The notes under the pieces are model-generated. The model saw nothing but the letters and a program-made list of their open reading frames with translations, ran no database searches and was not told the origin of the DNA. 64,000 nt of DNA. It comes from Fructobacillus broussonetiae (GTDB lineage Bacteria > Bacillota > Bacilli > Lactobacillales > Lactobacillaceae). Shown here in pieces: positions 15,411-55,212 of this stretch. The translations under genes were made by a program, and so were the position numbers. Location of the stretch: assembly GCF_018437275.1 (NCBI RefSeq), contig NZ_JAAMFK010000004.1, forward strand, positions 1 through 64,000, written 5' to 3'. Numbering within the stretch: the stretch's first letter is position 1; each line of letters starts with the position of its first letter.

Positions 15411-15506
15411 TTTACTTTGGTGGGAGTTGGTGCTATATTAAAGTCAGAATTTTGAAGATAGTTTGGATTACCAACTTTCGAAAACACCGCCGGTCAGCGG
15501 TGTTTT
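15411..15506 (+). ncRNA. candidate antitoxin small RNA A1
   Basis: A strong promoter (TTTACT 15411-15416, 17-nt spacer, TATATT 15434-15439) is followed ~45 nt later by a terminator hairpin (ACACCGC, loop CGGTCA region, GCGGTGT, T-run; 15482-15506). There is no start codon with an SD between them, so the product would be a ~60-nt RNA. It converges on the 39-aa peptide gene whose own terminator (CCCCCGAT ... ATCGGGGG) lies at 15520-15541. The layout is that of RNAII in Fst/par type I systems. Near-identical copy at 16877-16972. Confidence 0.5.
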
Positions 15507-15550
15507 TCTTTATAAAGAAACCCCCGATGGGGAATCGGGGGACGTGTAAA

Positions 15551-15670
15551 TTAATCGTCATGGAAAAACGATTCAATCAACTTTTTCAGCTGGTCTAATA
15601 CTAAATCGACCAATAGGTGATCTAATACAGCCTCTGGCAGCTGAGCTAAAAATTGGAGAAATTCGTTCAT
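15551..15670 (-). CDS. 39-aa amphipathic peptide, candidate type I toxin (copy 1)
   Basis: 39 codons, start ATG at 15670 with a near-perfect SD (aaaggagg, 6 nt spacing). It contains the block LAQLPEAVLDHLLVDLVLDQ, followed by LKK and an acidic tail ending HDD. Leu/Val/Phe residues recur every 3-4 positions, giving an amphipathic helix rather than a plain membrane span. The copy at 17017-17136 has the same length and about 26 of 39 identical residues with mostly conservative changes, which shows selection on the protein. Its leader carries a hairpin just upstream of the SD. Not recognised as Fst or another named toxin; could alternatively be a secreted peptide. Confidence 0.65.
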   Translation of the reverse strand: MNEFLQFLAQLPEAVLDHLLVDLVLDQLKKLIESFFHDD

Positions 15671-15686
15671 ATCTACCCTCCTTTCC

Positions 15687-15707
15687 TGGCACCTAAACCT
15701 AGTGCCA
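15687..15707 (-). promoter_or_regulatory. leader hairpin upstream of peptide copy 1
   Basis: On the minus strand TGGCAC, 9-nt loop, GTGCCA, ending 4 nt before the GGAAAGGAGG SD. The second copy (17154-17173) keeps the stem (GGCACT/AGTGCC) with a compensated end pair, which supports a real RNA structure. Type I toxin mRNAs commonly carry such a hairpin next to the ribosome-binding site. Confidence 0.5.
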
Positions 15708-15814
15708 TAAAAAGAGGAATATCTTTTTCGCTTCATCGAATGATACGTATCAAATTCGTTTTTGCCGCAAAGAAAATGACTTAACTTAATTCGCATTTAG
15801 TTAGGTCATAAGTA

Positions 15815-15913
15815 TTTACATGCTATGAAGGTGGTGTTATATTTTAAGTAGAAATTGGAGGTTAGTTGTCTACTCAACTTTCCAAAAGCCACCGTGGGGA
15901 CGGTGGCTTTTTT
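15815..15913 (+). ncRNA. candidate small RNA B1, paralogue of A1
   Basis: Promoter TTTACA (15815-15820), 17-nt spacer, TATATT (15838-15843), then a ~60-nt transcript with a small AGTTG/CAACT hairpin and a terminator (GCCACCG ... CGGTGGC, T-run). The AACTTTC..AAA(A) block before the terminator is shared with A1, A2 and B2. No peptide gene converges on it; instead an unattached minus-strand-capable terminator follows at 15923. Confidence 0.45.
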
Positions 15914-15922
15914 TATTGCAAT

Positions 15923-16876: not shown

Positions 16877-16972
16877 TTTACTTAGTGAGAAGAAGGTGCT
16901 ATGTTTATGTCAGGTAATTATCAAGATTGAAATACCCACTTTCGAAAACACCGCCGGTCAGCGGTGTTTTTT
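16877..16972 (+). ncRNA. candidate antitoxin small RNA A2
   Basis: Promoter TTTACT (16877-16882), 17-nt spacer, TATGTT (16900-16905; one change from copy A1), then ~45 nt and a terminator whose sequence (ACACCGCCGGTCAGCGGTGT) is identical to that of A1. Convergent with peptide copy 2, whose terminator (CCCCCGA ... TCGGGGG) lies at 16986-17007. Confidence 0.5.
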
Positions 16973-17016
16973 CTTTTATAAGAAAACCCCCGACGGGGAA
17001 TCGGGGGACATGTTGA

Positions 17017-17136
17017 TTAATCGTCGTGGAACAACGAATTAATCCACTTTTTCAGCTGGTCTAATATTAAATCAACTAAAAATTGATTTAATACAGCACT
17101 AGGCAGCTGAGCTATAGTTTTAAGAATCTCTTCCAT
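17017..17136 (-). CDS. 39-aa amphipathic peptide, candidate type I toxin (copy 2)
   Basis: 39 codons, ATG at 17136, SD aaaggagg 6 nt upstream. It contains IAQLPSAVLNQFLVDLILDQ, then LKKW and the same acidic end HDD. Paralogue of copy 1: the AQLP, VDL and LDQLKK blocks and tail are invariant while E/S, D/N, F/I and V/I swaps keep the helix character. The leader hairpin (GGCACT/AGTGCC) precedes the SD. Function not recognised; the type I toxin reading rests on the convergent small RNA, the leader hairpin and the duplication. Confidence 0.65.
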   Translation of the reverse strand: MEEILKTIAQLPSAVLNQFLVDLILDQLKKWINSLFHDD

Positions 17137-17277
17137 GTTTAACCTCCTTTCCAGGCACTTAAACCTAGTGCCATCAAAAGAGGACAATCTTTTTGCTTCA
17201 TCGAATGATACGTAGAATAGTCATTTTTATCGCAAAAAAAGACCTAACCTGAATTAAATTTAATTAGGACATGAGTA

Positions 17278-17377
17278 TTTACTTGGTGAGTAGAAGGTGT
17301 TATATTTTAGTCATAGTTTTAAGGATTGTTGTTTGACCAACTTTCTCAAAGCCACCGTGGGGACGGTGGCTTTTTTT
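17278..17377 (+). ncRNA. candidate small RNA B2
   Basis: Promoter TTTACT (17278-17283), 17-nt spacer, TATATT (17301-17306), ~50-nt body with a CCAACTTTC block, terminator with the same stem and loop as B1 (GCCACCGTGGGGACGGTGGC). Ends facing the terminator of the minus-strand membrane-protein operon. Confidence 0.45.
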
Positions 17378-17384
17378 AATGCAA

Positions 17385-51143: not shown

Positions 51144-52655
51144 TTACCAATGCTGAGCCGAGGCAGGAATGTGCTTTCCTCCTAGTGAGAGCGCCCCTTG
51201 GTCATACACCTTCTGGTTTTGCACCCAAGTCTCTTTATCCTTGATGGTCAGACCAACTGTTGGCCCAAAAGTACAGTCCCCCGTAAAGGACGTGATGGTG
51301 AAGTTGTCATCGTTTTCGTCTTTTGGCGGAAGAACCGTGTAGGCGTAGGTGAACTTCTTCGTGTTCCGCTTGGTATTTGAACCAAGCACCAAACCCGTCT
51401 TGTTCAACTTCTCGTACGGACCATCAATTCCATCCGTCGAGACGTAGCCGTACAAGAAATTCTCATCCTTGAAGCGCTTGTCCGTTGTCGCCAAGGACTT
51501 GCCTTGGAAGCACGTGAACAGGTACCACTTGTTCTTATAGAAGAAAAGGTCGGGTCGCTCCGTGATATCGTTTGCCGAAGAGGTCATCAAAAGCGGCGGC
51601 TTAACCGTTTTTACCGTGAAGTCTGGATTCAATTCCAGAAGACCAATGGCGCCCGAAGCCAGGGCCGCCTTTGAACCCAGCTCGTTATTCGTTGCCATCT
51701 TCTTGCGTTCGCTCGTGTAGGACTCCAGTGAGCCGTAATCTTCAGGCGAGTTCAAGGTCACTTGGCCGTCACCATACTTCTTTCCTGTGTTTCCTTCAAA
51801 GGTCAGGTAGTAATGACCGTTTGCTGCCACAAAGTGTGGGTCGCGCATGGCAAAAGAGTCGTTTTTACTCTTAATCTGGTTCACGGTTTGGTAAATCTTG
51901 CCGTCACCTAAGAAGACGGTCTTGTGATCCGAGGCCTTTTGGTGGTTAACCTTCAATCCAGAGTCCCAGTTCGAACCGTCTTTTGGTTCGACACTAACCC
52001 GAACGGTGGAAAGGGACTGCGCCTGACCGTGCTTTGTCATCGCTCCGGTGTAAAAGACACGAATGGTGTCGTCTTCAGGGTTCATCATGACAGACGACCC
52101 CGACCACTCATTGTTAATTTTTTTAATCGTTTTGTCCGGATTGTCCGTCCCCTCCGTAAAGGAATTCAAGACATAGCCCAAGTAAATCCATGAGCTAGGA
52201 TCCGTTTTCTTATCGTCAATCTTTTGGGCAAAGAGAGCCATCTTGACGCCCTTCTTATCCCGCCTTTTTCCAACGGCTGAAAGGGCGATGGTCAAACGGT
52301 AACCGTGATAATTAGCCACGCGACCATCTTGGTCGGTGACGGGCCATGAATCCCAGAGGGAGAGAGGCTTGACCTGTCCGTCCTTTGGGTCGATTCCCTT
52401 TGCGTCAGGAATTCTTTGTGCGCTTTTATCGGCATCAAAAGTTGGCATCGCAAATCGACTGTCCTTCATCTGACTCGGAATGTCTGACAAATCTAAACGG
52501 GTAAAGTGAGCGATACCACTTGCTTGCGGATTACTCTTGCCGAGTGGTTGCTGATTAATGCCGAGTAAAATGGCGGTTGTGGTGAGAGACCCCATCAAAA
52601 TCGCAATGTAGGAAAACTGCTTGTGCCTTCCAAGAAAGGATCGATACCGATACAT
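51144..52655 (-). CDS. levansucrase, GH68 fructosyltransferase
   Basis: 503 aa. N-terminal signal anchor (~14-33), then the five-bladed GH68 catalytic domain with the full triad: nucleophile Asp102 in LWDSWPV, transition-state Asp272 in MRDPHF, acid/base Glu366 in ITERPDLF; also EWSGSS (183-188). No N- or C-terminal repeats or LPxTG, so it is the compact type near 500 aa, probably secreted. It splits sucrose and builds levan or fructo-oligosaccharides. Inulosucrases share the fold, so the linkage type is not certain. Single gene with a structured leader. Confidence 0.92.
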   Translation of the reverse strand: MYRYRSFLGRHKQFSYIAILMGSLTTTAILLGINQQPLGKSNPQASGIAHFTRLDLSDIPSQMKDSRFAMPTFDADKSAQRIPDAKGIDPKDGQVKPLSLWDSWPVTDQDGRVANYHGYRLTIALSAVGKRRDKKGVKMALFAQKIDDKKTDPSSWIYLGYVLNSFTEGTDNPDKTIKKINNEWSGSSVMMNPEDDTIRVFYTGAMTKHGQAQSLSTVRVSVEPKDGSNWDSGLKVNHQKASDHKTVFLGDGKIYQTVNQIKSKNDSFAMRDPHFVAANGHYYLTFEGNTGKKYGDGQVTLNSPEDYGSLESYTSERKKMATNNELGSKAALASGAIGLLELNPDFTVKTVKPPLLMTSSANDITERPDLFFYKNKWYLFTCFQGKSLATTDKRFKDENFLYGYVSTDGIDGPYEKLNKTGLVLGSNTKRNTKKFTYAYTVLPPKDENDDNFTITSFTGDCTFGPTVGLTIKDKETWVQNQKVYDQGALSLGGKHIPASAQHW

Positions 52656-52699: not shown

Positions 52700-52810
52700 C
52701 AAAGTGGTGGAAAGGTGGCGTTAAATAAAAAAGCACGCCGAATTCATGAAGAATCGGAATGTTTTTGGTTAGTTAGGGCACAGGCCTATCTTTTTCTTAA
52801 ATCTGCACGC

Positions 52811-52868
52811 ATAATTCAGTTAGCAAAGAAGCCGAGACGGCGACGCAGACCCTCCAAAGGAGGTGAGT
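52811..52868 (+). promoter_or_regulatory. leader of the third peptide gene with sequestered ribosome site
   Basis: A possible -10 CATAAT lies at 52810-52815. Hairpin GCCG-AGA-CGGC (52831-52841) precedes CCTCC-AAA-GGAGG (52851-52863), in which the anti-SD pairs directly with the SD. Translation would be blocked unless the structure opens. Confidence 0.5.
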
Positions 52869-52871
52869 TAT

Positions 52872-53027
52872 ATGCCCGAAATACTTGTATTTCGAGGAGG
52901 TATGGTGAAATCCGATGAGAAAGGATGCGTCATGCAGGAGTTTCTTGAATTTCTTTTTGAGAATCTTGAGTCCGCTGCGAAAGTAGTTGAAATCATCAAG
53001 AACCTCAAGGAAATTTTCAAGAAATAA
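52872..53027 (+). CDS. 51-aa (or 31-aa) amphipathic peptide, candidate type I toxin
   Basis: A frame of 51 codons with a canonical SD (aaaggaggtga) 5-6 nt before ATG at 52872; an internal ATG at 52932 also has an SD (aaagga) and would give a 31-residue peptide beginning MQEFLEFLFENLES and ending LKEIFKK. The 31-residue part is an amphipathic helix that opens like the 39-aa peptides (MNEFLQFL, MEEILKTI). It faces a convergent small RNA and ends at a shared bidirectional terminator. Not recognised; a PSM- or bacteriocin-like secreted peptide is the alternative. Confidence 0.55.
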   Translation: MPEILVFRGGMVKSDEKGCVMQEFLEFLFENLESAAKVVEIIKNLKEIFKK

Positions 53028-53143
53028 AAAGCAACCATCTCGCTTTGACGAGTAGATGGTTGCTTTTGTAATCATTAACTAGTCGCCGTTTTTGCGGCTT
53101 TGCTAAGGGCTTCCGGTTGCCTCCGGAAGTCCTTTTCAATTGC
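53028..53143 (-). ncRNA. candidate antisense RNA facing the third peptide gene
   Basis: Minus strand: -10 TATACT at about 53144-53149, then hairpin CTTCCGG/CCGGAAG (53112-53132), hairpin GCCGC/GCGGC-like around 53089-53102, and the terminator shared with the peptide mRNA (AAGCAACCATC ... GATGGTTGCTT, 53030-53066). Convergent RNAs with one common terminator are the hallmark of par/Fst-type systems. The -35 is poor. Confidence 0.45.
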
Positions 53144-53204
53144 TAGTATAACATGAGTTGTTGATCGCAGCAGGTTTTTTATGAATGATTGGAATATTTA
53201 TAGA

Positions 53205-53300
53205 AATAAAAAAGCAATCCTCTCGCTTTGACCGGCTGATGGTTGCTTTAGCAATTTATCACTAGTCGACGTTTTCGGTGACACTGATATCCTATCATGG
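53205..53300 (-). repeat. degenerate second copy of the third module's RNA end
   Basis: AAAAGCAATCCTCTCGCTTTGAC ... GATGGTTGCTTT repeats the terminator at 53028-53066, and CACTAGTCGACGTTTTCGG repeats AACTAGTCGCCGTTTTTGCGG. There is no peptide gene beside it, so this looks like a decayed or orphan antitoxin copy. Sequences are given in fragments. Confidence 0.5.
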
Positions 53301-53419
53301 TTTGTTTGAATTTTTAGGCGTTATTCGTTATCATAATAGTCGTCATTTGAATAATTAAAAAGATTTGTCGAAATTGGTCTACTGGTCTAGCCCGACTAAT
53401 GAAAAAGAAAGAATATTTC

Positions 53420-55212
<1,793 letters not shown>

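Follow-up and report, generated by a model that had tools for sequence, protein, structure and literature searches.

A probable type I toxin-antitoxin module beside pyrG in Fructobacillus broussonetiae, with a RatA-type antisense RNA and an mRNA predicted to pair its 5' end with its 3' UTR

How Gram-positive type I toxin mRNAs avoid translation before the antitoxin arrives is an unsettled question. The accessible text of one review contrasts the Bacillus subtilis systems with the processed mRNAs of Gram-negative bacteria (PMC6562991), and a 2024 PNAS paper, in the part available, proposes that mRNA refolding may control par and txpA/RatA, given that these mRNAs do not seem to be processed (PMC11228461). 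A small peptide locus adjoining pyrG in Fructobacillus broussonetiae poses the same question. A preliminary description placed it at positions 52811-53149, borders that proved accurate, and reported an mRNA with a self-paired Shine-Dalgarno (SD) sequence and a structured RNA on the other strand. We analyzed it in its window (the whole 64,000-nucleotide [nt] stretch of DNA), in its 1.27-Mb genome, and in a comparison set of 13 Fructobacillus genomes (its own and 12 others).

We consider the locus to be probably a type I toxin-antitoxin module, chromosomally encoded and akin to TxpA/RatA and SprG/SprF, that is controlled by a closed mRNA and an antisense RNA. The computed evidence consists of the homology of the antitoxin, the layout, covarying complementarity between the 5' and 3' parts of the mRNA, and a predicted locked SD. 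The module lies between pyrG and an open reading frame (ORF) on the opposite strand (51144-52655), which we take to be levansucrase-like. PyrG of this genome shares 93% identity with the Fructobacillus papyriferae protein and 92% with the F. fructosus protein. At blastn sensitivity, the module had no match in plasmids or phages.

The antisense RNA and the peptide mRNA

The RNA on the minus strand has inferred ends at 53141 and 53022 (about 110-120 nt), placed with covariance models and folding. This strand folds at -45.3 (z, -6.6), and the stretch is preceded by a -10 box TATACT (53145-53150, minus strand) with TGT before it and a weak -35. The Rfam RatA model RF01776 matched over its full length with 32.1 bits (E, 0.032), below the gathering score of 49. 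We also built a genus covariance model from 23 RatA-like RNAs of other Fructobacillus genomes, themselves chosen by weak RF01776 matches and layout. This model, which holds no sequences from the own genome, gave 60.2 bits, with E-values of 1.2e-11 in the window and 2.4e-10 genome-wide that are rough because the calibration was short. The structured RNA announced in the preliminary description is thus borne out and, as judged from its sequence and fold, is a RatA-type antitoxin, which would make the locus a TxpA/RatA-SprG/SprF-like type I module. Sequence and layout agree with this class, the predicted convergent antisense RNA covering the 3' region of the toxin mRNA.

The txpA/RatA system of the B. 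subtilis skin element likewise consists, according to the text available, of convergent RNAs that overlap by ~120 nt, with the toxin SD paired (PMC3531473; PMC7430163). As there, the antitoxin beside pyrG is antisense to the 3' part of the mRNA and matches RF01776, here below threshold; RatA measures 222 nt and is thus longer. The gathering threshold of RF01776 was reached in 0 of the 13 Fructobacillus genomes and in 56 of 201 Lactobacillaceae genomes (matches at E 0.001 in 86 of 201). In a phylum sample, 1 of 299 genomes had a match at E 1e-4, a survey that excludes strong matches only, because its strict filters also missed the genome of the pyrG module.

The two RNAs had been described as sharing a bidirectional terminator, which holds in part. 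The hairpin T1 (53027-53067, 14-bp perfect stem) can in principle serve both strands, but it is chiefly the terminator of the antitoxin and possibly a partial one of the mRNA. T residues occupy 8 of the 9 positions after the stem on the antitoxin strand and 6 of 9 on the sense strand, and the antitoxin strand had more T in 30 of 33 genus modules. Its loop CTTTG is partly conserved (16/33 modules versus 1/33 in a control window). A second hairpin, T2, lies on the sense strand (53106-53139; stem 53106-53133, then TTTCAA) and in the mRNA fold sits at the 5' end of the antitoxin. Its U run is short, and the count made of its U tract is not dependable, since folding took in part of the antitoxin promoter. 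The txpA mRNA is reported, in the available text, to extend as far as a terminator that lies about 270 nt beyond the transcript start (PMC3531473). On this precedent and the T2 hairpin, we infer an mRNA from ~52820 to 53139 (roughly 320 nt) that probably runs ~70 nt past T1; the antitoxin would therefore be antisense to its whole 3' untranslated region (UTR). A fixed consensus scan for promoters and terminators reported neither module promoter and neither T1 nor T2; its single terminator was the attenuator-like hairpin of pyrG.

The predicted mRNA starts behind a -10 box CATAAT (52810-52815, plus strand), a 5/6 match that ends 4 nt before a pairing segment described below; no convincing -35 was found. 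The SD had been said to be self-paired, and the letters are as stated: CCTCC (52851-52855), AAA, and GGAGG (52859-52863), followed by ATG at 52872. This SD1 hairpin (52851-52863) is present in the minimum free energy (MFE) and centroid folds. The stretch 52818-53139 has an MFE of -133.6 versus a shuffle mean of -84.5 (z, -8.7), and 0 of 100 shuffles were as low. The two alternative SD/ATG pairs could also be read directly from the sequence: the starts at 52872 and 52932 share one frame and end at 53027. The upstream start is thereby fused to the toxin ORF and gives 51 residues (52872-53027), and the internal one gives a toxin-like peptide of 31 residues (52932-53027) with SD2 AAAGGA at 52920-52925.

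To place the upstream start, we examined leader-ORF candidates chosen by script in the 33 genus modules; in one of these the script found no toxin ORF. In 25 of 33, the ORF behind the first, locked SD is separate, has 2-19 codons and stops ahead of the toxin start or slightly past it. In 6, the pyrG-adjacent module included, the first start is fused in frame with the toxin, and in 2 the leader ORF is long and overlaps the toxin. By analogy, this suggests that the upstream pair is a leader ORF and the downstream pair the toxin start. In sprG1/SprF1 of Staphylococcus aureus, two in-frame starts give a long and a 31-residue peptide, and the antitoxin overlaps the 3' end (PMC8309996, as far as its text was available). 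The pyrG module shares the two in-frame starts and the 31-residue length of the shorter peptide.

The peptide and the related modules

The peptide is the unusual part of the module. Small hydrophobic transmembrane peptides are the rule for type I toxins, and the 31-residue peptide is not of this kind. Its best 19-residue hydropathy is 0.98, versus 2.58-2.86 in three hydrophobic toxins of the family; it is charged, has a hydrophobic moment of 0.53 and contains no transmembrane-like stretch. From its sequence, it would be amphipathic rather than transmembrane. TxpA, in contrast, is a transmembrane toxin of 59 residues, and the SprG1 peptides are hydrophobic single helices. Neither the 31- nor the 51-residue form had a match in Pfam at E 1, Hol_Tox (PF16935) included, or in NCBIfam, PepG1 included. 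Its likeness to the Hol_Tox toxin of G003 is weak (shuffle P = 0.014). A nearer relative is the paralogue at C1:86.6 kb (score 52, reached in 0 of 2,000 shuffles). A search for relatives in related genomes had been proposed earlier; with the 51-residue form, it returned none at E 1 in the 12 other Fructobacillus genomes, a result that excludes close relatives only, because the same search missed this paralogue.

Of 44 RatA-model hits examined across the 13 Fructobacillus genomes, 33 have the layout of the pyrG module. The own genome holds 13 RatA-type RNAs at E < 1e-4, the pyrG-adjacent one included, and the Hol_Tox profile found nothing there at E 0.001. Nine of the 13 belong to modules with leader, ORF and 5'-3' pairing; a tenth (C8:140.1 kb) has the complementarity and an unclear toxin frame, and three look like orphan or duplicated antitoxins. 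Among the other eight modules of this genome, the hydropathy of the peptide is 0.41-1.81 in seven and 2.86 in one (C1:251.7 kb), whose peptide has sub-threshold matches to Hol_Tox and to NCBIfam PepG1. RNA control is thus conserved while the peptide beneath it diverges beyond recognition.

Hol_Tox relatives occupy the same layout in other genomes. A sister module of G002 encodes a Pfam Hol_Tox peptide (2e-9; NCBIfam PepG1 match sub-threshold), and G003 and G010 carry Hol_Tox modules at the same site upstream of pyrG (2.3e-11 and 1e-12). The other 10 of the 13 genomes had no RatA-model match upstream of pyrG, even at E 10. It is plausible that the pyrG module descended from a Hol_Tox module at that site, though the upstream flanks differ and the likeness to the G003 toxin is weak. 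G010, like the F. broussonetiae genome, has a partial second copy beside the module. In the latter, the remnant lies at 53191-53316 (minus strand), comprises T1 and the antitoxin core, and forms a direct repeat (D1, 76% over 80 nt) with the module; it was recovered as a 79% nucleotide match (E, 4.2e-13) and by the genus RatA model (18.7 bits; E, 0.029). By-eye inspection of this remnant showed neither an antitoxin 5' hairpin nor a promoter.

These features raise the alternative that the module is decaying, its RNA parts remaining while the peptide is no longer a transmembrane toxin and is now inert. The low hydropathy, the adjoining remnant, the fusion of the two starts, the RatA-type RNAs elsewhere in the genome that have no intact module, and the lack of a close peptide relative in 12 genomes all speak for it. 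We nevertheless regard decay as unlikely. No damage is seen in the ORF, in SD2, in either hairpin or in the 5'-3' complementarity, and the C1:86.6 kb locus has the same layout and encodes a related peptide. Moreover, the tandem copies on contig C7 have stayed open despite 10 codon differences, 6 of them non-synonymous. The reading that we prefer is a probable toxin-antitoxin module whose peptide has diverged.

Several further observations concern the sister loci. The tandem copies just mentioned (L029, C7:58.3-59.2 kb) encode 49-residue peptides. RatA-type RNAs with no intact facing toxin mRNA were seen at L097 (C7:10.5 kb), L079 (C6:99.9 kb) and L187 (C1:251.4 kb), and these are candidate orphan antitoxins, which might control other modules in trans. 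At L079 (C6:100.07 kb) and L196 (C8:140.1 kb), a seven-T run follows the second ATG and, read by eye, shifts the expected toxin frame out of register with this start. The runs could be a matter of phase variation, slippage or decay.

Complementarity between the mRNA ends

The segment at or near the 5' end of the mRNA (52820-52844, plus strand) and a segment of the 3' UTR (53082-53106) form an inverted repeat (I2) and pair in the fold, with 80% complementarity over 25 nt. We refer to this as the long-distance interaction (LDI). Sister loci show the same relation between leader and 3' UTR in different letters. In 30 of 33 genus modules, the pairing segment begins 4-8 nt after a -10 box and therefore corresponds to the predicted mRNA 5' end; a -10 with at least a 5/6 match lies within 24 nt before it in 29 of 33, versus 9 of 33 in a control window.

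To test whether leader and antitoxin belong together locus by locus, we scored their similarity in 44 of the 85 RatA-model hits in the genus. These were picked by E-value and not by pairing: they are the 46 hits with E up to 0.684 minus C9:25213, which lies within a large ORF, and C8:15840, which is the sRNA of the 15-kb locus discussed below. Cognate pairs summed to 612, whereas permuted pairs had a mean of 465.5 and a maximum of 516 (0 of 5,000 as high). The 11 hits of the own genome gave 162, against a permuted maximum of 155 (0 of 5,000). The leader of the pyrG module ranked first among 44 against its own antitoxin; among canonical modules that closely resemble one another, the cognate frequently ranks lower because their leaders are nearly alike. 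An opposite-sense control scored 10.98 versus 13.91, a modest gap.

Covariation was counted in a set of 46 distinct modules that had been chosen because they pair; they come from Fructobacillus, from other members of the Lactobacillaceae and from one further family of the order. Covarying combinations numbered 4,311, versus a mean of 896 and a maximum of 1,506 in 1,000 shuffles. The paired fraction was 81% versus 70%, a value inflated by the selection, so the permutation over 44 hits is the firmer test. Beyond the genus, 32 loci were tested (the 30 best of a longer list plus 2), 3 of which had too short an upstream stretch. A pairing that passed the filter was absent in 11 of the 44 genus hits and in 11 of the 29 other testable hits; several of these are orphan antitoxins. 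Before the count, 22 of 73 failed or were removed, one (G008_C14_14643) by hand. Two adjacent columns in the middle of the helix are kept as non-pairs, leader AA facing 3'-UTR GG, in 40 and 43 of the 46 modules; at this conserved A-G mismatch site, the antitoxin mostly keeps CC for its own hairpin. In ensemble folding, the mean pairing probability was 0.71 over 52 modules.

We considered whether the LDI masks SD1. Opening SD1 costs several kcal/mol in every mRNA form. Compared with the T1-truncated mRNA, the full-length one opened more easily in 33 of 52 modules and less easily in 5. Since SD1 is not harder to open with the LDI, the pairing probably serves to shield or close the mRNA, or to gate binding of the antitoxin, rather than to mask SD1. 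A partial stop at T1 could yield a form of the mRNA without end-to-end pairing. The aapA/IsoA and hok/Sok mRNAs combine a 5'-3' interaction with local SD-masking hairpins (PMC6733600), and hok also requires translation of the upstream ORF mok (PMC4147584), both as given in the parts of these papers that were accessible. The pyrG module resembles them in its 5'-3' pairing, SD hairpin and upstream ORF, a likeness for which we claim no kinship. The SD of those mRNAs is masked by the 5'-3' pairing, an effect that our folding did not reproduce.

A precedent is txpA, whose long-range helix SL4 is reported to have RNase III cleavage sites at nt 96-98 and 218-220 and to be undone by RatA binding (PMC3531473, text available in part). 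Refolding upon antitoxin binding therefore has a precedent, as far as that text goes. By the quoted positions, SL4 does not include the extreme 5' end, unlike the LDI. In the published text covered, a helix between the extreme 5' end and the 3' UTR is unmentioned; figures or the bsrG structure work may already describe one. The par (Fst) module of pAD1 also has convergent RNAs with a common terminator (PMC4147584, in the accessible part). The par RNAs pair by direct repeats and block the ribosome, whereas the repeat that links leader and antitoxin gene here is inverted, and none of the 7 direct-repeat families in the window links the two.

Because this repeat is inverted, both RNAs carry it in the same sense, and they might instead bind a common third partner, a protein or the ribosome, with the antitoxin as a decoy and no end-to-end pairing. 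A GCCG...CGGC element is kept in both RNAs at the pyrG module, and ribosome binding has been reported for SprF1 of S. aureus (PMC8309996, in the text available). The common sequence, however, changes in step locus by locus, a behavior not needed for binding one protein, and it forms a continuous helix in most modules. We therefore judge a decoy improbable and retain end-to-end pairing.

According to the model that we prefer, the locus would be transcribed into a roughly 320-nt mRNA, its 3' end near T2, from which a small peptide would be translated from the upstream (51 residues) and the internal (31 residues) start. With SD1 locked in its hairpin and the 5' end paired with its own 3' UTR, the message would be closed and highly structured, and the pairing would keep it inert or stable. 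The RatA-type RNA would dock, probably via the T1 and T2 loops; in txpA/RatA, the available text describes the loop of the mRNA terminator as facing an antitoxin stem-loop and the antitoxin terminator as facing an mRNA stem-loop (PMC3531473; PMC7430163). The antitoxin would then open the 5'-3' pairing and form a long duplex destined for decay by RNase III, so that the presumably toxic peptide would be produced only when the antitoxin is short. The covarying helix, the locked first SD and the leader ORF make this a concrete model that is testable by point mutations.

The pyrG module is accordingly placed as a divergent member of the TxpA/RatA kind, and the 5'-3' pairing as a family-wide RNA feature that goes unmentioned in the literature covered. 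A wider version, which we put forward tentatively and rate a little short of probable, is that, throughout Bacilli, a covarying helix joining the extreme 5' end to the antitoxin-covered 3' UTR closes the RatA/Hol_Tox mRNAs. The antitoxin would then duplicate the 5' end of the mRNA and act by strand displacement, and in Fructobacillus the RNA chassis would have come to carry unrelated peptides that are amphipathic and not transmembrane, the one beside pyrG among them. Among the 30 best-scoring Hol_Tox loci of the class, 5 show the leader/3'-UTR repeat at shuffle P ≤ 0.01. The claim beyond the genus is tentative because other Hol_Tox loci sit behind a -10-like box but fail this cutoff.

The neighboring pyrG leader and the 15-17 kb peptide loci

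An amphipathic peptide could also be secreted or serve as a signal, in the manner of a phenol-soluble modulin (PSM) or a bacteriocin, under borrowed toxin-antitoxin RNA control. The hydrophobic moment given above would suit such a role, and two other peptides in the window, at 15-17 kb, are of similar make-up (0.56). The RNA control, however, is that of type I toxins, and we hold this reading to be quite improbable, slightly more so than the decoy. That the module is a regulatory element of pyrG can practically be dismissed: it adjoins pyrG at a site common to two other species, but in 13 of 13 Fructobacillus genomes a TTGACA-type promoter and a GGGCTC leader belong to pyrG itself, 10 of the 13 are without a RatA match there, and the antitoxin is read away from pyrG.

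The pyrG promoter region itself (53420-53513) combines the GGGCTC start with a strong attenuator-like hairpin, found in 13 of 13 Fructobacillus genomes. Its match to the Rfam PyrG_leader model is weak (25.8 bits versus a gathering score of 65). The hairpin presumably acts in CTP-sensing attenuation.

The preliminary description had counted the pyrG locus and the 15-17 kb modules as three loci of one system. This grouping gained no support: no convincing RatA and no such pairing were found at 15-17 kb, and the real sisters of the pyrG module occupy other parts of the genome. None of the 25 matches from a lax Rfam search of the 15-17 kb stretch was RatA, and the inverted repeats listed there include none of the LDI kind between leader and 3' UTR. 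On the two divergent sRNAs, matches of the RatA model were marginal (E, 0.56 and 3.8; genus model, 0.0022 and 0.059), from which a distant kinship with RatA may be read. The 31-residue peptide had also been said to start like the 39-residue peptides of these loci, a likeness that comes down to 6 of 8 residues; in shuffles, P was 0.0055 for the comparison with the 15-kb peptide and 0.34 for that with the 17-kb one.

The 15-17 kb loci (15437-15915 and 16903-17380, minus strand) each hold a gene for a 39-residue amphipathic peptide; the two peptides are related to each other, and sRNAs flank their genes. Relatives were the 2 copies in the own genome, with no convincing match in 150 other genomes of the family; matches in 13 other genomes of the 151 (E, 0.08-0.9) were taken as noise. 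The logic of the sRNAs differs from that of RatA, and the loci are possibly a second type I-like system. The pairing of each divergent sRNA with its own mRNA spans the SD and start region, at -45.6 and -51.2 kcal/mol, while swapped sRNA/mRNA pairs gave -33.2 and -29.1 and all six other combinations -21 to -33 kcal/mol.
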